Origin: Acidisoma cellulosilyticum
GTDB taxonomy: Bacteria > Pseudomonadota > Alphaproteobacteria > Acetobacterales > Acetobacteraceae
Length of the DNA stretch: 64,000 bases
Assembly (NCBI RefSeq): GCF_020621385.1
Contig: NZ_JAESVA010000005.1
Span: 186,001 to 250,000 of the forward strand
Direction of reading: 5' to 3'
Shown piece after piece: positions 6,654 to 27,355 of the stretch. The notes under the pieces were generated by a model, which worked only from the letters and a program-made list of their open reading frames with translations, was not told the DNA's origin and made no database searches. Both the position numbers and the translations under genes were made by a program. Every line of letters starts with the position of its first letter. The stretch's first letter is position 1.

Positions 6654-6668
6654 TCGAGAGGTCCCCTT

Positions 6669-7031
6669 ATGTATGATCTCTCTCTTGACTGGAGTGGCGA
6701 TCTATCGCTGTCTCCCACCGGTGGCCTCGAACTCTCAACCGGCGCCAATCTAACTCGGCAACGCCTCATCAGAAGGTTGCTGACAAATCCGGGCGACTTG
6801 CTCGAAGACCTCACATATGGCGCGGGTCTCGCTCAGTATATCGGATTGCCTGTAAATGCAGGCGCGCTGCAGGCCCTCATCGAAGAGCAATGCTTGCTGG
6901 AAGATACCGTCGAGAGTGTGAGTTCTGTAAAAATTCTTACGGACGGAAAAGGCTTTGTGAGCGCCACGATTTCATATGTGAGCATTGATGCATCCGAAGC
7001 CCAATCCTTAACCTTGCCGACTACAACTTAA
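6669..7031 (+). CDS. phage baseplate wedge protein W (gp25-like)
   Basis: 120 residues. DLSLSPTGGLELSTGANLTRQ followed by RLIRRLLTNPGDLLEDLTYG and a final beta pair is the gp25/GPW signature (D-x-x-x-x-x-x-G, then Q-R, then G-[ED]-x4-x-x-Y-G). gp25 is a sheath-initiator and lysozyme-like core of the baseplate wedge. The same signature recurs in the C-terminal part of the HNH protein at 22,868-24,040. Residue positions here: DLSLSPTGG about 10-18, Q-R 32-33, YG 50-51. Confidence 0.88.
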   Translation: MYDLSLDWSGDLSLSPTGGLELSTGANLTRQRLIRRLLTNPGDLLEDLTYGAGLAQYIGLPVNAGALQALIEEQCLLEDTVESVSSVKILTDGKGFVSATISYVSIDASEAQSLTLPTTT

Positions 7032-10154: not shown

Positions 10155-11294
10155 ATGAGTGGAGCAAATTTACATACTTGGTCGTCTGGGGAAGTTTTGA
10201 ATGCCTCCGATCTTAACGATAATTTTACAAATTTAAATGGCGCAATCACAACAACAGAAGCCGAAGCTGAGCAAGCTTTTATTTCCGCGACCTCGGCGCT
10301 TCAGATTGCATCATCTACTTCATCCGTAATGGCAGGTCTGGAATCCCAGGTAGCCTCGGATACCGCCCTGGTTACCTCTGGTGGATCTATCATCTCAGCA
10401 GCTGACACAGCCGCCAACAGTGCCCTGGCTATCGCGAACGGGAATTTGATTACCATTAGCGGTCTCGAAACCGAGATTTCTTCGATTTCTTCGACCTCCG
10501 AAGCTGCTGAAGCGTTGGTAATTTCCAACGGAGGTCTGATTATTCCATTATCTGGAGCGGTGACCTCGGCATCATCGGCGGCATCATCCGCCCAGGCAAA
10601 TGCAACATCCAACACCAGCGCGATATCCGGTCTCAGCGGCCAGGTCGCCTCGGCTCAGACGCAGGTCGCATCATCCACGGCAGCCGTATCCTCGGCCGCA
10701 ACCGAAATCGCCGTGATTTCAGATTCTATCGGCCAGCCCAATGGCATTGCGACTCTAAGTTCTGGTCTCGTTCCCTTGTCCGAGCTTCCGTACACGGGCG
10801 GCGCTGGCATTACTATTTCGCCAACCGGTCAAATTTCGGCAGCTGCAGCAGGCTCCGTGACCGGTGATCCAGATGTTTACTGTTATTTCGGTGGAGCATC
10901 GACAGCAACCACAGGCGAATACGCTTTTGGCATCCGAGCAAGTAAAGGCATCGCCAGCATTACGCATACTGCAACTGGGGTTTACACGATTGTATTTACA
11001 ACTCCATTCGCCAACGCTTACTGGATCGGGGTTTATGCTGGCGGATATGGCGGCGATAACACCGGCGCAACTAGCGGCGACTTGACGGTGTGGGATGCTA
11101 CACAGGCATTGATTTGTGAGCATCGCGGCGGCGAATTCCCTTCTAGATCGACCACGCAGGTCATCTTGAGCACTGTTTATGCGGTCGCCGGATCTGTCGT
11201 TGCCGCCGATCTTGCCCGAATTTCCCTCGCAATCTGGGCCGCCCCAACATCTCAGCCGACCATCGTTACCAGCGGCACAACATCTACTGCATAA
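10155..11294 (+). CDS. Ser/Ala-rich tail fibre protein, copy 2 (paralogue)
   Basis: 379 residues, twelve bases after copy 1 and of the same length and layout. The N-terminus differs (MSGANLHTWSSGEVLNASDLNDNFTNLN is a common phage 'fibre start'), the stalk is again Ser/Ala-rich, and the C-terminal domain closely follows copy 1 (CYFGGASTATTGEYAFGIR, WIGVYAGGYGGDNTGATSGDLT, REFPSRS-type end). The two genes look like a tandem duplication that kept the binding domain and diverged in the stalk. An alternative is a heterodimeric fibre. Confidence 0.65.
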   Translation: MSGANLHTWSSGEVLNASDLNDNFTNLNGAITTTEAEAEQAFISATSALQIASSTSSVMAGLESQVASDTALVTSGGSIISAADTAANSALAIANGNLITISGLETEISSISSTSEAAEALVISNGGLIIPLSGAVTSASSAASSAQANATSNTSAISGLSGQVASAQTQVASSTAAVSSAATEIAVISDSIGQPNGIATLSSGLVPLSELPYTGGAGITISPTGQISAAAAGSVTGDPDVYCYFGGASTATTGEYAFGIRASKGIASITHTATGVYTIVFTTPFANAYWIGVYAGGYGGDNTGATSGDLTVWDATQALICEHRGGEFPSRSTTQVILSTVYAVAGSVVAADLARISLAIWAAPTSQPTIVTSGTTSTA

Positions 11295-11304
11295 GGAAAT
11301 CATT

Positions 11305-11769
11305 ATGTCAGGAACTACACAAAACGCGACAACCTATGTCGTCCAGCAGGCCGATAACAGTGTTCTCATTGTATCCGCAATGCCCGGTTATGAGCCTCAG
11401 CCTGCAGCAGCCGGGCTTTCCGTACGAACCTTGGTCGCGGGAGAGGTCATGCCGCCTGGCGAATTTAGGTCATCCTGGACTTATGGTGCCACAGAACTCG
11501 GCGTCAATATGGTTACGGCGGCCGCTACACATCTGGCAAATCTTGTGTCCCTGGCTAGCCCGGTTATGAGTAATGTTCGGGTTGCCTATACAACCGCAGA
11601 CATCATCGGCGATACAACGACAAGGGCCGCATGCGCAACGCAGCTAGCAGCACTCATGCAAGTCGGGTCAACAGATTTGAGTTCGGCGACCACTCCTGTA
11701 GAGCTAGCTGCATTGATTCCGGCATGCATCACACAAGCGGTTCCCGTGCCTGCGGTTCCAGCCGCCTAA
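11305..11769 (+). CDS. small tail-region protein, possible fibre chaperone
   Basis: 154 residues from ATG 11305, which has AAGGAAA about nine bases upstream. I place the start there because an earlier Met in frame (11179) lies inside the fibre gene. The protein has a Val/Ala-rich middle (VNMVTAAATHLANLVSLASPVMSNVR) and a Pro/Ala C-terminus. Position directly after two fibres suggests a fibre assembly or attachment protein, but I recognise no family. Confidence 0.5.
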   Translation: MSGTTQNATTYVVQQADNSVLIVSAMPGYEPQPAAAGLSVRTLVAGEVMPPGEFRSSWTYGATELGVNMVTAAATHLANLVSLASPVMSNVRVAYTTADIIGDTTTRAACATQLAALMQVGSTDLSSATTPVELAALIPACITQAVPVPAVPAA

Positions 11770-19255: not shown

Positions 19256-19504
19256 ATGACCCAAACCGCTTATGAGGCCAAGGCAACCCGTGCCTGGCAG
19301 CTGATCCACGACGACAAAATCCCCGCCAAAAAGGCCGCCGTGACGCTCAAAATCGACCTGTCCGATCTCTATGAGATGCTAGCGTTTTCTAGGACTCGTC
19401 GAGAAATTTTGGACTCCCACAAGGCAACATTCGCCTCGATCTCTCGCTACAATCCGTCACCCGCCAACGCTGGCCACTCGGTCAGGCCGCCCGTTTCAGC
19501 CTAG
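19256..19504 (+). CDS. small helix-turn-helix-like protein, copy A
   Basis: 82 residues from ATG 19256 (TTGGAG nine bases upstream; a GTG at 19,247 is also open). The core AWQLIHDDKIPAKKAAVTLKID, followed by LSDLYEMLAFSRTRREI, is a short HTH-like pattern. It is paralogous to the protein at 27,476-27,676 (shared A-W-x-L-I-H-x-D, A-A-x-x-L, D-x-Y-E-x-L-A and R-R-x-I). Its last 23 bases overlap the end of the convergent methyltransferase gene. A regulatory role is inferred. Confidence 0.5.
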   Translation: MTQTAYEAKATRAWQLIHDDKIPAKKAAVTLKIDLSDLYEMLAFSRTRREILDSHKATFASISRYNPSPANAGHSVRPPVSA

Positions 19505-20816
19505 GTCGCCGCTGCTCTACCAAGGCATCTAGGGCCTGACCAAGCAGCTCAGCCGTGGTCAGACATAGTTCATCCCTGGCCAGCCTGATCCTTTCGGCCA
19601 GCTCTGGTGACACAGTGAGCGCCACAGAACCATGAGTTTCCCTCCACCTGCGATGCCTTTCCCCGCCGGTCATAGGTCTCACACCTTTTGTCGGCCGACC
19701 CCGCTTTCTAGCGATCACTGCGCCACCCAGGATCTCCTTCACCACCAGGCCAACCGCATAAGCGAGGGGAGGCGGCACAGAGTTGCCAACTTGCTTCAAG
19801 GCCTCCGATTCCGAACATGGAAACCCGAAATTATCAGGAAATCCCTGGATTCGGGCGGCTTCTCTCAGTGTGAGCCATCGTGAAAAATGAGGGTGAATCC
19901 ACTCAGAGAGGTCCTTTCCCATCTGAGCTAGCAACGTATGCGACGGTTTCGAGCCATCCAGCCGTCTCCATTTTTGGGCCCTGACACCATCCCAAAGCTC
20001 CGGCGGTAAGCTGTCCGCGTTCTGACCAGCGGCCAGGTGGGCAATCAGATTAGCGCGGCGAGGACCAATGCGTTTCGTATGATGCCCGGAAACCTTGAGG
20101 TTTCTACTGCGCCTTGTTCTCTGATAGTCGCTCGAGGGCTTTGATGCGTAGCCCACCATCTCACCGGGCTCGCATACCGCCTCCGGCAAATCCGAAATCG
20201 CTTCGTCGACCGAAATTACGGGCTGTCGGTGAGCATCGAGGCCAGATTTCAATAGGCCATCGAGCGATCCGGAAAGCCTCAAATCGTCGCGTGTTCCGAC
20301 AAAAAGCACTCGCTTGCGGATCTGCGGCGCCCCAAAATCTGATGCATCTACTTGGACCAGGGTTACATTCGAGTATCCGATCGCCTGGAATTTTTGAAGG
20401 ATTTCCCGTTTAAATTTTCCGAGACCTGACGACAGGATGCCAGGGACATTTTCCATGATAAACGATTTTGGCCTGATGGAATCAATAATTCTTGCAAACT
20501 CAACCCAGAGACCATTGCGCTCATCATCAGCATCGCGCGCTCCTATGCTCGAATGCCCCTGGCACGGAGGGCCTCCGTAGCATAAGTCGATTTCTTGGAG
20601 GCCATACAGCTCGCCATGACCTGATTTCGGCGCCAAAAATTTCTGGATATCCCCTTCATATAAAGGGACCGAGGGGAAATTGGCGCGATACGTTTGACAA
20701 GCCGACCGGTCCTTTTCGACCGCCACAGCGATCTGGTATCCGGCGCGTTCGATGCCAGCGCAAAATCCACCGGCGCCAGAAAAAAGAGAGATAGCCCTAA
20801 GCCTATACATGCTCAT
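19482..20816 (-). CDS. DNA (cytosine-5) methyltransferase with C-terminal RHH-like extension
   Basis: About 444 residues. Motif I (LFSGAGGF), motif IV with catalytic Cys (GGPPCQGHS), motif VI (ENV), motif VIII (QIRKRVLFVG) and motif X (GNSVPP) are all present and in order. The MTase part ends about 75 residues before the C-terminus. That tail reads RKRGRPTKG (AT-hook-like) then VALTVSPELAERIRLARDEL plus a second helix, the shape of a ribbon-helix-helix domain. The start is uncertain: GTG 20,834, ATG 20,816 or ATG 20,810. No cognate nuclease is adjacent. Its target site cannot be read from sequence. Confidence 0.88.
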   Translation of the reverse strand: MSMYRLRAISLFSGAGGFCAGIERAGYQIAVAVEKDRSACQTYRANFPSVPLYEGDIQKFLAPKSGHGELYGLQEIDLCYGGPPCQGHSSIGARDADDERNGLWVEFARIIDSIRPKSFIMENVPGILSSGLGKFKREILQKFQAIGYSNVTLVQVDASDFGAPQIRKRVLFVGTRDDLRLSGSLDGLLKSGLDAHRQPVISVDEAISDLPEAVCEPGEMVGYASKPSSDYQRTRRSRNLKVSGHHTKRIGPRRANLIAHLAAGQNADSLPPELWDGVRAQKWRRLDGSKPSHTLLAQMGKDLSEWIHPHFSRWLTLREAARIQGFPDNFGFPCSESEALKQVGNSVPPPLAYAVGLVVKEILGGAVIARKRGRPTKGVRPMTGGERHRRWRETHGSVALTVSPELAERIRLARDELCLTTAELLGQALDALVEQRRPRLKRAA

Positions 20817-20840
20817 ATAATCCGAAGCCCACACATAATC

Positions 20841-21455
20841 TTACCGGCCAAACAGGTTCAAACGCAATGATGTCTGCCCCAATTTCGAGGCCCGCTCCCG
20901 TTCATAGCGATCTGTTAACGCCACGACGGCTGGACGGAGATCGGGAGCTGATGGTCCAAGGTCTCCGTGCATAGTCACGCGGGCCTCAACCCCACTTAGC
21001 AAACCAAAACTCTCGAGTTTTCCGTCAGCATCGAATTTCCCGATTTTGGGTGACATAGAGTAGCCCGGGATCTGAAAAGTTTTGAATGCAATGATTACAC
21101 CGCTCTGAACGCGTCGAGCGATTTGACGGACATCAATCGGAGTTCCGTTAACAAATTCTCCCCATCTCCAGCAAAACGTGTTGACATGGCAGGCCTGGAT
21201 TTCGGACCAACCCTCCGGTTCTCCATCGATCTCGATTTCAGAATCCTCGGGTCCTACAAACCATCCATTGGGAATCTGAGCAGGTTTGGCGGGTTCGATT
21301 TTGATGGGGTTAACGAGTGCATTTAAGCGATCAAATTCAGCAGCGGGAACGCGCCATATTTTGTATGTTGAATCGAATTTGCCGCCTGAAAATTTGATAG
21401 TGTCGCGATGTCGGTAAGTATCGCCTGGCAGGTCTATGTAAACAGAATTGCTCAT
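20841..21455 (-). CDS. DUF5710-like domain protein
   Basis: 204 residues. The N-terminal 40 residues (YIDLPGDTYRHRDTIKFSGG, then KFDSTYKIWRVPAAEF) look like the DUF5710 module ('D...A...GA.WD...K.WYVP'). This module is found in phage and plasmid proteins linked to DNA replication or mobilisation. The rest is unrecognised. The stop is six bases from the longest methyltransferase start (GTG 20,834), so the two are probably one leftward operon driven from the operator-like repeat at 21,462. Confidence 0.5.
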   Translation of the reverse strand: MSNSVYIDLPGDTYRHRDTIKFSGGKFDSTYKIWRVPAAEFDRLNALVNPIKIEPAKPAQIPNGWFVGPEDSEIEIDGEPEGWSEIQACHVNTFCWRWGEFVNGTPIDVRQIARRVQSGVIIAFKTFQIPGYSMSPKIGKFDADGKLESFGLLSGVEARVTMHGDLGPSAPDLRPAVVALTDRYERERASKLGQTSLRLNLFGR

Positions 21456-21461
21456 GTTGTC

Positions 21462-21496
21462 CTCACACTAGTATTCGGGGTTACTATTAGTGTGAG
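21462..21496. promoter_or_regulatory. inverted-repeat operator upstream of the leftward methyltransferase operon
   Basis: CTCACACTA and TAGTGTGAG are exact nine-base arms spaced by 17 bases, immediately upstream of the 204-residue gene. The spacing and position suggest a repressor-binding site at the leftward promoter. The AT-rich segment beyond (21,500-21,560) could contain the promoter itself. Confidence 0.45.
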
Positions 21497-21796
21497 TGAT
21501 CTAGAGCGCGAAAATCAAGTATATCGAGCATTATTTTTGTTTGCATTAGACATAAAAGAAATCTGATCGAGATAGTGGATCTCAGGCGCTTGGATCAGGC
21601 ATACTATTTGTAGAGGGCATCTCCGCATGTAGATGCAATCGAGCTCATCAGTGGTCTCCAACGCGAGATGAGAAGTGCTTGTAGGGGTACGGGTGCGCAG
21701 AATCCTGGGATTGAGCTTGCTCTCCCAGGATTTTTGCTTTCTTGACATATCGTTTATATGTGTTCCGGAGCGGCCAAGCGATGCCAGGAGGGTTCT
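21497..21796. other. non-coding stretch with an intrinsic terminator
   Basis: No gene is supported. It holds an AT-rich part, a small inverted repeat (GCATCT/AGATGC near 21,617), and a terminator at 21,701-21,735 (AATCCTGGGA / TCCCAGGATT followed by T5). Then comes ACATAT-CGTTT-ATATGT (21,745-21,761), operator-like, overlapping a TTGACA. A short rightward transcript ending at this terminator, or attenuation of the downstream leader/DUF4238 pair, is possible. Confidence 0.45.
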
Positions 21797-21877
21797 ATGA
21801 ATATCACACTCGGAAAGCTTGAGCAGATGAAGCCCAATTCTGAGTCGGTTCCGGTGTCTGATCCTGGGAGTGCCTAA
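21797..21877 (+). CDS. 26-residue leader peptide upstream of DUF4238
   Basis: A complete ORF with a strong ribosome site: AGGAGG at 21,785-21,790, six bases before its ATG. The peptide (MNITLGKLEQMKPNSESVPV plus six residues) ends at 21,877, six bases before the DUF4238 start at 21,884. DUF4238 itself lacks a good site, so coupled translation from the leader is likely. The peptide has no membrane segment or known motif. Confidence 0.4.
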   Translation: MNITLGKLEQMKPNSESVPVSDPGSA

Positions 21878-21883
21878 GCTCAT

Positions 21884-22864
21884 ATGGCGAAGTCGACAGA
21901 GCATCCCAGAAAACACCATTACATCCCGGTATTTTACCTGAGGCGGTGGTGCCGACAAAGAGATGGACGGCTCGCGCAGTTTCATCGCGTTGGTCCGACC
22001 AAAAGGCTGTTCAAAAAATGGGTTTGCCCAACGGAAACAGGATACAAGGAAGGTCTCTATACCCTGCCGAATCTTGAGCCTGAGAATCAAAATTGGTTGG
22101 AAACCGAGTTTCTCGGCCTGGTCGACAAAAACAGCGCGGAGGCTAGAAATAAGCTGATCGCACACGAAGACTTGTCGCCAGACCTGAAGGATTCCTGGTG
22201 CAGATTTATAATGTCTATGATCCATAGAAATCCGGAGAAGATAGCCGAGATTAGTAAGGTCTGGTACGAGGGTTATGACGACCTCACGCGGCGATTGGAG
22301 CCTCGATATGACGAGCTTCGTCAGGAGGGCGACCCTCCCAACTATGCAGCCTACGTTGCGTCCCAGAAGCAGGGCACCAAAGAACGGCTATTTGCTAACC
22401 TGATTAAGGGGATGATGGATAGCGAGCCAATTGGACTCGTTTTGAACAATATGAGATGGGCAGTGTGGGATTTCCCTCACACATGGAAAACTCTGATGAC
22501 GTCGGATCGTCCGATCGTCATGCCTCATGGATTGGCTCATGATGACTCGTATGTGGGTGTCGCGTTGAGCCCGAGACGCATGTTCTTGGCTTGCAATAAC
22601 CGCGAGCGATACGAGAAGATTTTAAAAAATGTAAGTGGCGATAGACTGGTCGCAGCACACAATGACGCGGTAGTCCGTCAAGCAAAAGACTATGTTTATG
22701 CAGCAAGTCATTTTGATGAGTCATTCGTAGATAGTCGCCTAGGACATCAACCGCCGCAGTTCCTTGGCTGGATCCCAGGTCAATATAAGAAACCTGACGG
22801 ATGGGATGCTATCCCACAATCTAAAGGTAACTTTCCTGCGGTGCCCGAAAAGCGAGAGGACTAG
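21884..22864 (+). CDS. DUF4238 domain protein
   Basis: 326 residues. HPRKHHYIPVFYLRRWCRQ, continuing RDGRLAQFHR, is the signature start of DUF4238 (PF14022). A later MTSDRPIVMPHG and ALSPRRMFLA complete the pattern. DUF4238 proteins are of unknown function and occur in accessory genome regions near defence genes. The stop is only three bases from the convergent HNH gene, so the two terminate together. Confidence 0.75.
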   Translation: MAKSTEHPRKHHYIPVFYLRRWCRQRDGRLAQFHRVGPTKRLFKKWVCPTETGYKEGLYTLPNLEPENQNWLETEFLGLVDKNSAEARNKLIAHEDLSPDLKDSWCRFIMSMIHRNPEKIAEISKVWYEGYDDLTRRLEPRYDELRQEGDPPNYAAYVASQKQGTKERLFANLIKGMMDSEPIGLVLNNMRWAVWDFPHTWKTLMTSDRPIVMPHGLAHDDSYVGVALSPRRMFLACNNRERYEKILKNVSGDRLVAAHNDAVVRQAKDYVYAASHFDESFVDSRLGHQPPQFLGWIPGQYKKPDGWDAIPQSKGNFPAVPEKRED

Positions 22865-22867
22865 GTT

Positions 22868-24040
22868 TCATTTGCCAATTTGACGAAAAAGTTCGTTCCA
22901 GCCGCTTTCTTTAAAGAATTGCTTGCGTTGATCCATCTGCTCTTTGGTAGGCATGTATACTTGCACTTCATTCGCCCATCGACCAATGCCACTTACTTCC
23001 AGGTCAAGTCGCACAGACAGGCGATTATTAACAGGTTGAGAATCAAGCACAACCACTTCGTTAACCTTAATCACGCATCTTAATGGGGTCTCGGCGGTCC
23101 CGTTTATCTTATCTCGAACCGGGATGGAGGCTTGACGTATAACATCCAACTTGAACAGGAGATCTAGCCAGGGAGAGTCATGATATGCGCTATAATACTC
23201 ATATAAACGAACGCCGAAAAGCTGATGAAAAGGGCTTTCACCGATTTGCATCGATAGAACTTCTCGAATCCGCTGCGGGAAATAGTCGCTGCCGGAAACC
23301 ATTGCTATATCGCCAGTGGGCGTCACATAGATATCATTATTAATCGGATCGGTTGCCAGGCTTGTCCCTAAATCTTCAACACTAATTCGTTGCGAAGAGG
23401 GTAATATAGGGCAAACTAGGTGGTATTCGTCATAATGCCGCTTTAGGCTAGGTGAATGACTTAACATTCGACCGTCACCCAGTTCGTTGCTGATGATATA
23501 GCGATACTCTTCTGGCAATTCGCTGAAATGCTCAATTAGTGACAGAAGAGTTGCAATTTCGCCTTCGAGGAAATGCTTAAGATTAAGGGTCCAGGAATCC
23601 TTTGTGAATTCGACAACATCACCTGTGCAGATCACGCTGGTGCCAATACCCAACAGACCGGTTGGGATGTTGACGGCAGATCTGTTTCGTATCGCCAGCG
23701 AGCATTTCTGTTCGTGCGCGAGCCTTAGGCGCCGTAGCTCGGCTCTTGTATAAGTTACCTCGTCTCTGTCGATTTCAATTGAACATGTGGCGCAGAGCCA
23801 GATGCCATTTTCGATACCTGATCGCTGTTCGGGCGTCATGGAACTGTCGTATCGTCTCCCACCAGGTCCCGGTGCTGCGGCCGAAATATGCGCCGCTACA
23901 CCCACCATGGTGACTGATTTGGTGCTTTCCTCACTCGGACCTACCGTAAGTTGTCCGCATTTTGAGCAGTGCCACCCAGCTCTGGCGGCCAGGGCCTGCT
24001 TATCCTTATCGGAGAATTCATCCCGGCTTGAACGAGCCAT
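22868..24040 (-). CDS. HNH nuclease-like protein with C-terminal gpW/gp25-like baseplate domain
   Basis: 390 residues. The N-terminus is an HNH-type domain: CSKC (25-28), AAHISAAAPGPGGRRYD (49-65, with His51), NGIWLCATC (78-86) and IDRDEVTYT (90-98). The middle (140-215) is unrecognised. Residues about 223-355 read like a gp25/GPW baseplate protein: NDIYVTPTGDIAMVSG, then QRIREVLSMQIGESPFHQLFG, then paired strands. The gpW of this same prophage (6,669-7,031) shows the same positions by eye: D-[IL]-x-[VL]-[TS]-P-T-G, M/L-x-[ST]-G, Q-R-[IL], L, G-[ED], [FY]-G. The gene has no phage-tail neighbours and sits among methyltransferase and DUF4238 genes. A defence or sensing role is inferred, not shown. 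Confidence 0.7.
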   Translation of the reverse strand: MARSSRDEFSDKDKQALAARAGWHCSKCGQLTVGPSEESTKSVTMVGVAAHISAAAPGPGGRRYDSSMTPEQRSGIENGIWLCATCSIEIDRDEVTYTRAELRRLRLAHEQKCSLAIRNRSAVNIPTGLLGIGTSVICTGDVVEFTKDSWTLNLKHFLEGEIATLLSLIEHFSELPEEYRYIISNELGDGRMLSHSPSLKRHYDEYHLVCPILPSSQRISVEDLGTSLATDPINNDIYVTPTGDIAMVSGSDYFPQRIREVLSMQIGESPFHQLFGVRLYEYYSAYHDSPWLDLLFKLDVIRQASIPVRDKINGTAETPLRCVIKVNEVVVLDSQPVNNRLSVRLDLEVSGIGRWANEVQVYMPTKEQMDQRKQFFKESGWNELFRQIGK

Positions 24041-24403
24041 GATTAGCAGGCCTCTCCTTTTCTCGGCCTAGCCATAGCCCAGGCGCCCAATTGGGGCCAA
24101 CGCTTAAAGCGGGCAAAAGAAGTACGGACCCGTCCAGGCCCTCACGATGCGATGATACCAGTTGCTCAAAGCCGACGTCGCTCCCAGAAACCTGGGAATC
24201 GCTGGTTGGCCTCGCTTTTGGCCCACGGCATCGGCGAGGTGATGTCCTGGGTGGACAAGAACAAAAAGGGAACTATGATGTTCCGCGCCCACGCGGGTCT
24301 CGGACCCGGCTTGGGAATGATGGTGCTGAGCCTGAGCGTTCGGATCTTGTGCGTCCTCAGTCGCGGATCTATCCGAACGAATGGTGAGATAGAGGAGGTT
24401 ACG
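24041..24403. other. non-coding region between HNH and vsr genes
   Basis: No gene is supported; the open frames here do not look like proteins. It should contain the divergent promoters of the HNH gene (leftward) and vsr (rightward). An inverted repeat GTTCGGAT ... ATCCGAAC (24,338-24,345 and 24,371-24,378) lies 26 bases before the vsr start and may be an operator. Confidence 0.4.
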
Positions 24404-24820
24404 GTGGCGCGGATTGCTGTGGACCGGGGTCGACGTATGGCCGCAATACGCACCGGGAACACGAAGCCAGAGCTCGCCGTTCGCCGCGCTCTTCACGCCC
24501 GAGGGTTCCGCTATCGACTGCATGTCAAAGCCCTTCCGGGGACGCCGGACCTTGTTATGCCGGGGCGTCGGGTGGCTGTTTTCGTCCACGGGTGCTTCTG
24601 GCATGGGTGCTTAAAATGCGATCGGGGCATCAGGAGACCCAAGGAGAACGCCGAATTTTGGGCGAAAAAGCTCACACAGAACCAGGCTAGAGACAGTCGC
24701 AATGTCGTCGATTTACAGGCCTTAGGCTGGCGAGTCGTAACATTTTGGGAGTGCGACACCCGTTCCAAGGAAAAGCTGGAATCGGCCATCGACGGACTCC
24801 AAACTTTCGTGCGAGTCTAA
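24404..24820 (+). CDS. vsr: very short patch repair (Vsr) endonuclease
   Basis: 138 residues from GTG 24404, which has AGGAGG at 24,393-24,398; longer frames upstream are not conserved. NTKPELAVRRALHARGFRYR, then PGTPDLVMPGRRVAVFVHGC, then FWHGC are diagnostic. Asp49, His62 and His67 match E. coli Vsr Asp51, His64 and His69. The protein nicks T:G mismatches that arise when 5-methylcytosine deaminates. It forms an operon with the methyltransferase 4 bases downstream. Confidence 0.9.
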   Translation: MARIAVDRGRRMAAIRTGNTKPELAVRRALHARGFRYRLHVKALPGTPDLVMPGRRVAVFVHGCFWHGCLKCDRGIRRPKENAEFWAKKLTQNQARDSRNVVDLQALGWRVVTFWECDTRSKEKLESAIDGLQTFVRV

Positions 24821-24824
24821 GGAT

Positions 24825-26036
24825 ATGGATTGCGCTTCAACCACGCCTACGGGGGCACCAAACGCCTGGACGGTCGCCGACTTTTTTAGTTGTGGCGGCG
24901 GGACAAGCGCGGGCTTTTCTCGGCGACCGGACTTCCGCCTAGTGGGCGCAGTCGACCTTGAGATGGCAAAACCCTCAGGAGGCGAGGGGGCGTCTGACTG
25001 CAACGGGACCTACTTCGCAAATCACGGCGTCCGCCCGATGGCCCGTGACATGATGACGTTGCAGCCGTCCGAGTTCTCAGAGGCCATCGGTATCAACCGC
25101 GGCCAGCTCAACGTGATGATTTCGTGTGCGCCCTGCACCCATCTGTCGCGGGCCAATCCGAATAATCATCTTACCGACCGCCCGGAAAACACGCTGATCG
25201 GACGGAGCGCTGAGTTCGCGGTCAGCCTGATGCCCGAGGTGTTCTTCATGGAAAATGCCCGCGAACTCATCATGGGCAACTACCGACATCACCACGAGGC
25301 CCTAGTCAAAAAACTGAAGAAGGCCGGGTACAGAGTCCATTCCGACATTCATTTTCTGGATCGGTTTGGCCTTCCTCAGGTTCGGGAGCGCGCTCTAGTC
25401 GTGGCATCACGAGTCGGACCGGTTCGGACGCTTGAAGACCTGTGGAAGGGATGGAAGGTCCGGCCAGAGGCGACCACAGTCCGGGCTGCACTATCCCGCT
25501 TGGCCGAATGGAAGCGCGAGAACCCGGTAGATCCGGACGGCGATGTTTTTCCGGGCATGGGCCCCCTGGTTCAGAAGCGGATGGCTGTAACCCCCCATGA
25601 CGGCGGGGGGTGGGCTGATGTCGCCCGGAACTCCCGAACGAGGAAACTGCTGACTAAGGACTGCCTGCGTCGATGGGAGCTCGGAGACCTTGGCTCTCAT
25701 CCCGACGTGTATGGCCGCATGGCCTGGGACCGAGCGGCGCCCACAATTAAAAGAGAGTGCGCGCATGTGGGAAACGGTCGGTATGCCCATCCGACCGAGG
25801 ATCGTCTCCTGACGGTGCGGGAGATGGCCTCGCTTCAGGGTTTCCCGTTCGACTACCGCTTCCCGGCTCGGGCCGTGGCTAACCGCTATCGGCATGTGGG
25901 TGACGCGGTGCCGCCGATGATCGCCTACCAGATGTCGGCTCTCGCGATGTGGATGAAGACGGGCGTCCGGCCGGAGCCCAAGGACTGGGTTATGCCGAAC
26001 ACCACCTTGCGTGTTGAGGATATTGTTGCAGCCTAA
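24825..26036 (+). CDS. DNA (cytosine-5) methyltransferase
   Basis: 403 residues. Motif I (FFSCGGGTSAGF), motif IV with catalytic Cys104 (ISCAPCTHLS), motif VI (ENARE), motif VIII (QVRERALVV) and motif X (GDAVPP, residues 359-364) are in order. Motif I is altered (SCGGGTSAG for SGAGG), as in a subgroup of m5C methyltransferases. It follows vsr and meets the putative endonuclease tail to tail with a 4-base overlap, so vsr-MTase-REase form one restriction-modification unit. Target sequence cannot be deduced. Confidence 0.88.
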   Translation: MDCASTTPTGAPNAWTVADFFSCGGGTSAGFSRRPDFRLVGAVDLEMAKPSGGEGASDCNGTYFANHGVRPMARDMMTLQPSEFSEAIGINRGQLNVMISCAPCTHLSRANPNNHLTDRPENTLIGRSAEFAVSLMPEVFFMENARELIMGNYRHHHEALVKKLKKAGYRVHSDIHFLDRFGLPQVRERALVVASRVGPVRTLEDLWKGWKVRPEATTVRAALSRLAEWKRENPVDPDGDVFPGMGPLVQKRMAVTPHDGGGWADVARNSRTRKLLTKDCLRRWELGDLGSHPDVYGRMAWDRAAPTIKRECAHVGNGRYAHPTEDRLLTVREMASLQGFPFDYRFPARAVANRYRHVGDAVPPMIAYQMSALAMWMKTGVRPEPKDWVMPNTTLRVEDIVAA

Positions 26037-27355
26037 AGGCCGCACCAAAGCCTGACGCGCTGCTTGAAAGTTTCCCAGTGCTCCGGGTGCCGGATACGCC
26101 CTCCATCCCAGCCCCAAGCGTGATGGAGATTAAAGACGTCGGTGAAGCGGACAGTGTCACGGTTCTGAAGTGGCGCCCGTCCGCTCTTCCTGCCGGTTCC
26201 ACCTTCTAAGATGTCCTTGGTGAGAAGGGCCATAAACAGGAATCGATCAGCGTTCACTTCAACCTTTGTTTCCCGTGAACCCAGAGCCAACCGTTCATGC
26301 AGATTGCTCGGATCTGTCGCGGTCTTCACCTCACCGACGGCAAACTCTTTAAGCTGTTGAGACCTCTGGACCGGGTGTTGGCGGACCTGGTTATACAGCG
26401 CCAGCGCTCCCTCTCCCCTAGTTAGTGGCTTCAGCGGTTTTGGAACCTTGGGCTTTTTGGAAGAATTCTTCGTCGCCTTGGGGGCGGCAACCTTTGGGAA
26501 TTGCGGAAGCTGAACGAGCGGATAAAATATTGAGACGTCCGGGTCGCTTGAGAACACAACGAAACGCTCATTGTTCAGAACCAGCGCCTTTATCTGCTTC
26601 GCCTTAATGTCAGTTTTCGTGCCCGAGACCAGATATTCAGCAATAGCCTCGGGAGACTTGTTCCTGAGGATGGAGGGCGAAGTCCCCACAATTTCGATAA
26701 TGCTTCCGGGCGAAATTTCGTCAATGGCATCGATGAACGCAATGGCCGCACCCATGGCGCCCACAGCCCCTGAGAAATTCTGGCTCGATCCATGAATGCC
26801 CAGGTGCCGATGGTAGGCGAGGAATGTCTCAGGCTGAACGCCTGTCCGGCGGATCCAGGCGAGGTGTAGATTGAGACGCTTTACCTCGTCAGCCAGCTCA
26901 GCCCGGCTTCCGCCGCCGATCTGGCTGGAGAACCAGGGATAAAGGTCTCGCTTCTGCTTATCGGAGAGTCCCGTCATGTCTAAGAAGGTCGCGATTGTGG
27001 CCTTTGAGCGAGCGAGGGCGACCTCGATATGGAGAAACAGCCTCCCAGGGTCGGTTTTGGCCGCAACCGCCTTAGCAACATCAACGGGGTCGACGCCAGA
27101 CTCGACCAGCAACACGCTATCATTCCAGTCGACTTCAAGGTCTTCTCCAGCGGCGGCTGCATGAGCGAGGGGAGCTGATAGAGCCTTGGTAATGCCTGCC
27201 AGCCGCACGCGGGCAAACGCTTCCATGAAGGCAACAGATTCCTCTTTTGACTGGGCGCAGCGAGCGAGTTGCTGCGCGAAATCCTGCATGCTCAGAGCCA
27301 CTGGATCGTCCCGATATCGATCTAGGAGAGGATCACGTCCAGCCCTGTCGAGCAA
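26033..27355 (-). CDS. putative type II restriction endonuclease
   Basis: 440 residues with TTG at 27,355 as the first usual start; the frame is open further upstream (RHPLRDEWRHAVERA), so a CTG or other start is possible. The first 260 residues are mainly helical. The C-terminal part has a Lys/Pro-rich linker (KKPKVPKPLKP), then FAVGEVKTATDPS (Glu342, Lys344), a likely E-x-K of a PD-(D/E)xK nuclease, then RETKVEVNADRFLFMALLT. Pairing with the methyltransferase and Vsr supports a nuclease. I suspect the Bpu10I-type family, with low confidence. Confidence 0.55.
   Translation of the reverse strand: MLDRAGRDPLLDRYRDDPVALSMQDFAQQLARCAQSKEESVAFMEAFARVRLAGITKALSAPLAHAAAAGEDLEVDWNDSVLLVESGVDPVDVAKAVAAKTDPGRLFLHIEVALARSKATIATFLDMTGLSDKQKRDLYPWFSSQIGGGSRAELADEVKRLNLHLAWIRRTGVQPETFLAYHRHLGIHGSSQNFSGAVGAMGAAIAFIDAIDEISPGSIIEIVGTSPSILRNKSPEAIAEYLVSGTKTDIKAKQIKALVLNNERFVVFSSDPDVSIFYPLVQLPQFPKVAAPKATKNSSKKPKVPKPLKPLTRGEGALALYNQVRQHPVQRSQQLKEFAVGEVKTATDPSNLHERLALGSRETKVEVNADRFLFMALLTKDILEGGTGRKSGRAPLQNRDTVRFTDVFNLHHAWGWDGGRIRHPEHWETFKQRVRLWCGL

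Follow-up and report, generated by a model that had tools for sequence, protein, structure and literature searches.

Background

In phage tails gp25 attaches to the wedge of the baseplate, and the sheath subunits of the first ring contribute strands to it. Many of the known defence sensors use repeat or NTPase domains to recognise phage proteins. Cap5 is described as an HNH homodimer that is activated via its SAVED domains (PMC8568899). The DefensePredictor study of 2026 tested 94 units, 42 of which protected, from 69 mainly ECOR strains of Escherichia coli and counted "a phage baseplate protein" among ten domain types newly validated in defence (PMC13092281).

The gene analysed here brings these two kinds of protein together. 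Judged by sequence profiles and predicted structure, HNH-gp25 is a real family in which a Cap5-type HNH domain is joined to a captured phage sheath-initiator-like domain. The interpretation given in the first-pass annotation of this DNA is partly supported.

The gene and its surroundings

The open reading frame was present where it had been annotated, at positions 22868..24040 on the minus strand of the window, by which we mean the whole 64-kb stretch of DNA that was analysed. It lies next to a prophage, encodes 390 amino acids and stands alone on its own strand, and a Shine-Dalgarno-like AAGGAG (24054..24059, minus strand) can be read from the sequence upstream of its ATG. A DUF4238 gene (21884..22864, plus strand) converges on it with 3 bases between the two, and a Vsr gene lies upstream in divergent orientation. 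In the Pfam scan of the window the flanks of the fusion gene are C5 methyltransferase and Vsr genes.

The cargo arm had been described as carrying methyltransferases and DUF4238, and the cargo stretch (19482-27355) does hold two cytosine-5 methyltransferases, Vsr and DUF4238, together with two proteins that have no Pfam match (20841-21455 and 26033-27355). The G+C content is approximately 48-55% at 18-24 kb of the window compared to approximately 56-65% at 24-34 kb, and no tRNA was found within the 64-kb window. The prophage's own gpW/gp25 gene is located among the baseplate genes at 6669..7031 (plus strand; phrog_120, E 2.5e-12). These are two separate genes, and the fusion gene has not replaced the gpW of the prophage in the window.

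Family members and distribution

Homologues were gathered from phages, plasmids, IMG/VR and bacterial genomes, and were included in the alignment where a single frame covered both parts. We left out sequences with broken frames (L004, L031, L032), those with the HNH part only (L006, L007, L008, L010) and those from a phage or gene that was represented already (L005, L012, L020, L033, L035). The resulting 24 rows share the HNH-gp25 architecture and come from Proteobacteria, from an Acidobacteriaceae MAG (L027) and from a Bacteroidota plasmid (L016). The architecture is thus not unique to this locus, with 24 rows aligned and five E. coli members in RefSeq. A literature search of partial coverage, which took in titles and the starts of abstracts, gave no account of an HNH-gp25 fusion or of its mechanism.

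If the C-terminal part alone was used as the query, 14 genome loci were found, 12 of them intact and carrying the HNH part and 2 broken. The only genome matched in the class sample (1/385) and in the phylum sample (1/398) was the own genome of the window. Matches were obtained in 13 of the 395 genomes of the order sample. Six of these matches have low scores and represent plain gp25-type proteins; the remaining seven have high scores, and in six of them, including that of the own genome, the HNH part is present, with three of the six identical over the last 150 residues. The E. coli form occurs in 5 out of 5426 genomes in a search for near-identical DNA, and RefSeq names the five members "DUF2634 domain-containing" (4) or "GPW/gp25 family protein" (1). 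The distribution of HNH-gp25 is thus patchy and on mobile elements.

Five copies are broken or partial (L004, L031, L032, L084, L085). Matches on Bosea and Ochrobactrum plasmids turned out to be partial or broken copies and were rejected. In the seventh of the high-scoring loci of the order sample (L043, G1060:C23) the middle and gp25-like module follows approximately 38 residues which do not look like HNH, the start being lost at the contig end. To judge from its sequence this is possibly the same sensor on another effector; among 61 genomes searched around this locus only its own matched.

The N-terminal HNH domain

The annotated N-terminal HNH domain was confirmed, and PADLOC, PDB and Foldseek place it with the type known from CBASS effectors. 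It spans residues 5-118 (23687..24028, minus strand) and is assigned to the Cap5 type by PADLOC, the PDB profile, Foldseek and the alignment. PADLOC models of CBASS endonuclease effectors and of SAVED-HNH match the fusion protein within residues 4-120, the PDB chain 9om4 "HNH endonuclease" matches this part with an E of 7.3e-18, and four SAVED-domain PDB chains do so with E values from 2.6e-14 to 1.8e-4. With the full-length model Foldseek matched Cap5 (probability 1.00, E 9.1e-4). The SAVED-HNH matches in PADLOC and PDB end near residue 120, and neither source matched a SAVED domain in the fusion protein, the C-terminus of which is gp25-like instead. Pfam HNH_2 matches 7 out of 10 homologues (best E 0.0029).

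H51 and N78 are invariant in all 24 aligned rows, as are C25, C28 and C83. At position 86 the window protein has Cys and the other 23 rows have His. By analogy, we take these conserved residues to have zinc-binding and catalytic roles. In the HNH-gp25 rows residue 86 is followed by S, A or G, where several Cap5-type chains have His, and because of this replacement nuclease activity is not assured.

The HNH module is also found on other C-termini: 6 out of 242 matched plasmid records cover at least 80% of the protein, and the HNH relatives L006, L007, L008 and L010 are without a gp25 part. The last of these (G000:C20:22151-22468) is a second gene in the same genome as the window gene, with a related HNH, a different C-terminus and no gp25-like part. 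Mean pairwise identity in the family is 54.1% for the HNH part, 37.4% for the middle part and 42.6% for the gp25-like part. That the HNH part is best conserved fits a constant effector with a changing sensor; a loose constraint outside the HNH part would give the same pattern of faster divergence in these sequences.

The C-terminal gp25-like domain

Between the two domains the model contains a β-rich middle part (residues 128-213; 23402..23659, minus strand), which is not assigned to a family and had no sequence match in the PDB. It is followed by the gp25/sheath-initiator-like domain, placed by profiles and the model at residues 216-365, or about 214-366 (22946..23395, minus strand). The annotation had put a gp25/GPW domain at residues 223-355; the domain itself stands, the limits do not and are nearer to 214-366. 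Four lines of evidence agree on its presence, namely PHROG, the PDB profile, hhalign with controls and the AF2 model.

A Pfam scan of the window protein alone detected neither the HNH nor the gp25 domain, and an NCBIfam scan returned noise only. The unnamed family phrog_34329 matches the window protein over near its full length (E 1.4e-84), and weak matches to baseplate families were obtained from this protein alone (phrog_120, E 0.012; phrog_43, 0.081; phrog_975, 0.16; phrog_261, 0.18). In the homologues these matches become stronger, with phrog_975 "baseplate protein" in 8 out of 10 (best E 3.8e-9) and phrog_120 "baseplate wedge subunit" in 7 out of 10 (best E 4.8e-7). Pfam Sheath_initiator, which we take to be linked to DUF2634, occurs in 2 out of 10 homologues (best E 9e-4) and in none of the 115 class genomes, the own genome of the window included.

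Searched against the PDB with hmmsearch, the domain profile gave 26 matches, three of them with E below 0.001 (best 2.2e-4). By name the best eight of the 26 are sheath initiators, a baseplate wedge subunit, gp25-family proteins, a "putative tail lysozyme" and Phi92 gp139; weaker matches include a HicB protein (E 0.3) and Internalin B chains (E approximately 0.5 and up). Two other profiles of the family also led to sheath initiators and wedge proteins (hmmsearch, best E 4e-4 and 4.8e-4), and Internalin B chains appear among the weaker matches of the second of these as well. In hhalign the domain reached a score of 40.2 (probability 89.9, 47 columns) against a gp25 set of 35 rows that is not fully independent, because six of the rows were taken by the HNH-gp25 family's own profile and 29 by Pfam GPW_gp25. 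The controls scored 13.0 (reversed gp25), at most 12.9 (100 column shuffles) and 8.3 (middle part). The gp25 profile in turn recovers 21 out of the 24 HNH-gp25 members above the HMMER inclusion line, with L003 (E 0.015), L017 (2) and L002 (3) below it.

The pairing with the gpW of the same prophage, which had been made by eye, is borne out by rank. Among 481 stop-to-stop frames of the window the gpW frame (6654-7028) comes next after the fusion protein itself with the domain profile, at an E of 0.049, or 0.082 without the window row, which is below the inclusion line. In E. coli MS 69-1 the gpW is likewise next, among 84 frames, and also below the inclusion line (E 0.065). The EPR motif seen in many gp25 proteins is not kept in the HNH-gp25 alignment, so that the partner binding of the gp25-like domain may have changed; the window prophage's own gpW is without this motif as well.

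Since the full-length model gave a clear Cap5 match and a single baseplate chain among the best 50 Foldseek matches listed, we folded the C-terminal part on its own, and the AF2 model obtained for residues 214-366 reached a pLDDT of 90.1. The top two of its 784 PDB matches in Foldseek are a baseplate chain of phage KP1 and T4 gp25, with moderate scores (E 0.03 and 0.08, TM 0.37-0.49), and no PDB structure matches this model at E ≤0.001. In BFVD nine matches reached E ≤0.001, including DUF2634, baseplate wedge and IraD/Gp25-like proteins; the rest comprise uncharacterised and unnamed proteins and a LysM protein. From profiles and the predicted fold, the C-terminal domain is of the gp25/sheath-initiator kind.

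Neighbours in other genomes

The search for other HNH-gp25 fusions, which the annotation had proposed, yielded a family, and some of its neighbours are known defence genes. We scanned 10 flanking proteins from 7 loci, hand-chosen among the larger or nearer ones, and 4 of these 10 hand-chosen proteins match PADLOC models (the best being Dsr1, HEC-05, RT_VI for a reverse transcriptase, and PD-T4-5). The other six are one with a NACHT match just under the Pfam cut-off, one with an AAA domain, a Tn3 transposase, DUF4238 and two without a match. In E. coli MS 69-1 and GN02461 the fusion gene belongs to the tail region of a P2-like prophage, where it is located between the sheath and the tail-fibre genes but on the opposite strand, and adjoins a Lit-family phage-exclusion gene. 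In the prophage P2-EC46 the surroundings of the gene are referred to as the Z region, and the gene itself is annotated as a putative lysogenic conversion protein.

Across 26 loci we found no fixed partner gene beyond close relatives and two DUF4238 cases, and no recurring cyclase neighbour; in L013 an annotated nucleotidyltransferase gene is found approximately 3.6 kb upstream of the fusion gene. The two loci in which DUF4238 adjoins the HNH-gp25 gene (2/26) are the window and L027, and DUF4238 is possibly a functional partner. In L027 the DUF4238 gene (10781-11662) is co-directional and lies 21 bases downstream of the HNH-gp25 gene. In each of four Rhizobiaceae loci (L013, L014, L021, L030) a related gene precedes the HNH-gp25 gene and ends 4 bases upstream of it; in L013 and L014 the upstream gene is annotated as Abi family, and a DUF6602 gene is also found upstream there.

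Proposed function

Because several relatives sit beside known antiviral genes, HNH-gp25 is probably an anti-phage protein. A defence role had been guessed at before, and it is supported by the PADLOC neighbours in some genomes and by the Lit-family gene that adjoins the copies in two E. coli strains. The fuller reading, that of a mobile single-gene anti-phage defence protein the gp25-like domain of which senses a tail protein while the HNH domain cuts DNA, we hold to be about evenly balanced between right and wrong.

In this mechanism the middle and gp25-like parts would keep the HNH domain, the putative DNA-cutting part, inactive until phage infection. The captured gp25 copy would most likely bind, in the way that gp25 does in tails, a tail protein that a contractile-tailed phage has just produced, and this binding could cluster the HNH domains and lead to DNA degradation late in infection. 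The analogy is with the cyclic nucleotides that act on Cap5 via the SAVED domain: a gp25-like piece of the enemy phage would take the place of the messenger-binding sensor.

We tentatively propose, as an idea that is possible rather than probable, that the sheath initiator, captured by bacteria and prophages and fused to a CBASS-type DNase, represents a bait on which the sheath or wedge proteins of an invading contractile-tailed phage dock, just as on a growing tail, and thereby switch on DNA destruction. If this were true, the danger signal would be the assembly of the tail. With a captured piece of the tail as its sensor, immunity would depend on a step that is unavoidable for contractile-tailed phages, and such a sensor would predict its own target range.

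The gp25 fold also occurs outside tails in the anti-adapter IraD, and the gp25-like fold of an anti-phage nuclease could accordingly serve as an adaptor or oligomerisation module only, the trigger being something other than a tail protein. Some of the PDB and BFVD matches labelled IraD/Gp25-like and the loss of the EPR motif are in line with this; the best-scoring sequence relatives, however, carry the names of sheath initiators and baseplate wedge proteins, and we regard the adaptor reading as doubtful.

The position of the window gene between C5 methyltransferase and Vsr genes might indicate an HNH restriction or homing endonuclease with an incidental phage-derived domain. This is improbable in view of the HNH relatives, which include CBASS effectors, and of the four annotated plasmid loci and two E. 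coli loci, where no methyltransferase is listed nearby.

It had further been suggested that the domain was borrowed for assembly, and the two E. coli copies inside P2-like tail gene clusters could be seen as virion parts, built by the prophage into its own baseplate in order to carry a nuclease to the next host against competitor DNA. Both copies, however, lie on the strand opposite to the tail genes. A borrowing for assembly is less likely because three prophages, that of the window and those of E. coli MS 69-1 and GN02461, each keep their own separate gpW and because no tail gene is listed near the four annotated plasmid copies, and the same observations make a virion part very improbable. 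TssE shares the gp25 fold, and a toxin loaded via a TssE-like domain on a type VI or extracellular contractile system could therefore be imagined, but apart from close relatives and the two cases of DUF4238 the 26 loci have no partner gene in common, which leaves this with hardly any credibility.

For annotation, the reading as an anti-phage protein means that a label such as "GPW/gp25" or "DUF2634" outside a tail operon, as given to the E. coli members in RefSeq, can hide a candidate defence gene.

Comparison with known systems

HNH-gp25 shares with Cap5 (HNH-SAVED) the N-terminal HNH, the conserved His and Asn, the zinc-ligand-like Cys residues and a C-terminal part in the same polypeptide; it differs in its β-rich part and gp25-like domain, which stand where Cap5 has SAVED and show no SAVED match. 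With gp25, gpW and the sheath initiators it has in common the profile similarity, the fold and a Q ... GE ... G signature, whereas its domain is fused to a nuclease and does not keep the EPR motif.

The closest described gene is ORF2 of P2-EC46 (AJ512680), which has the same architecture and 38.5% identity over 93% of the query, but is situated in the Z region of a P2-like prophage from E. coli and not in a methyltransferase stretch. We assume that EC46 may mean ECOR 46. Because the strains of the DefensePredictor study were mainly ECOR strains as well, its baseplate system is possibly a homologue of the P2-EC46 protein and therefore a member of the HNH-gp25 family. If this is the case, the anti-phage action of the family would already have been shown.
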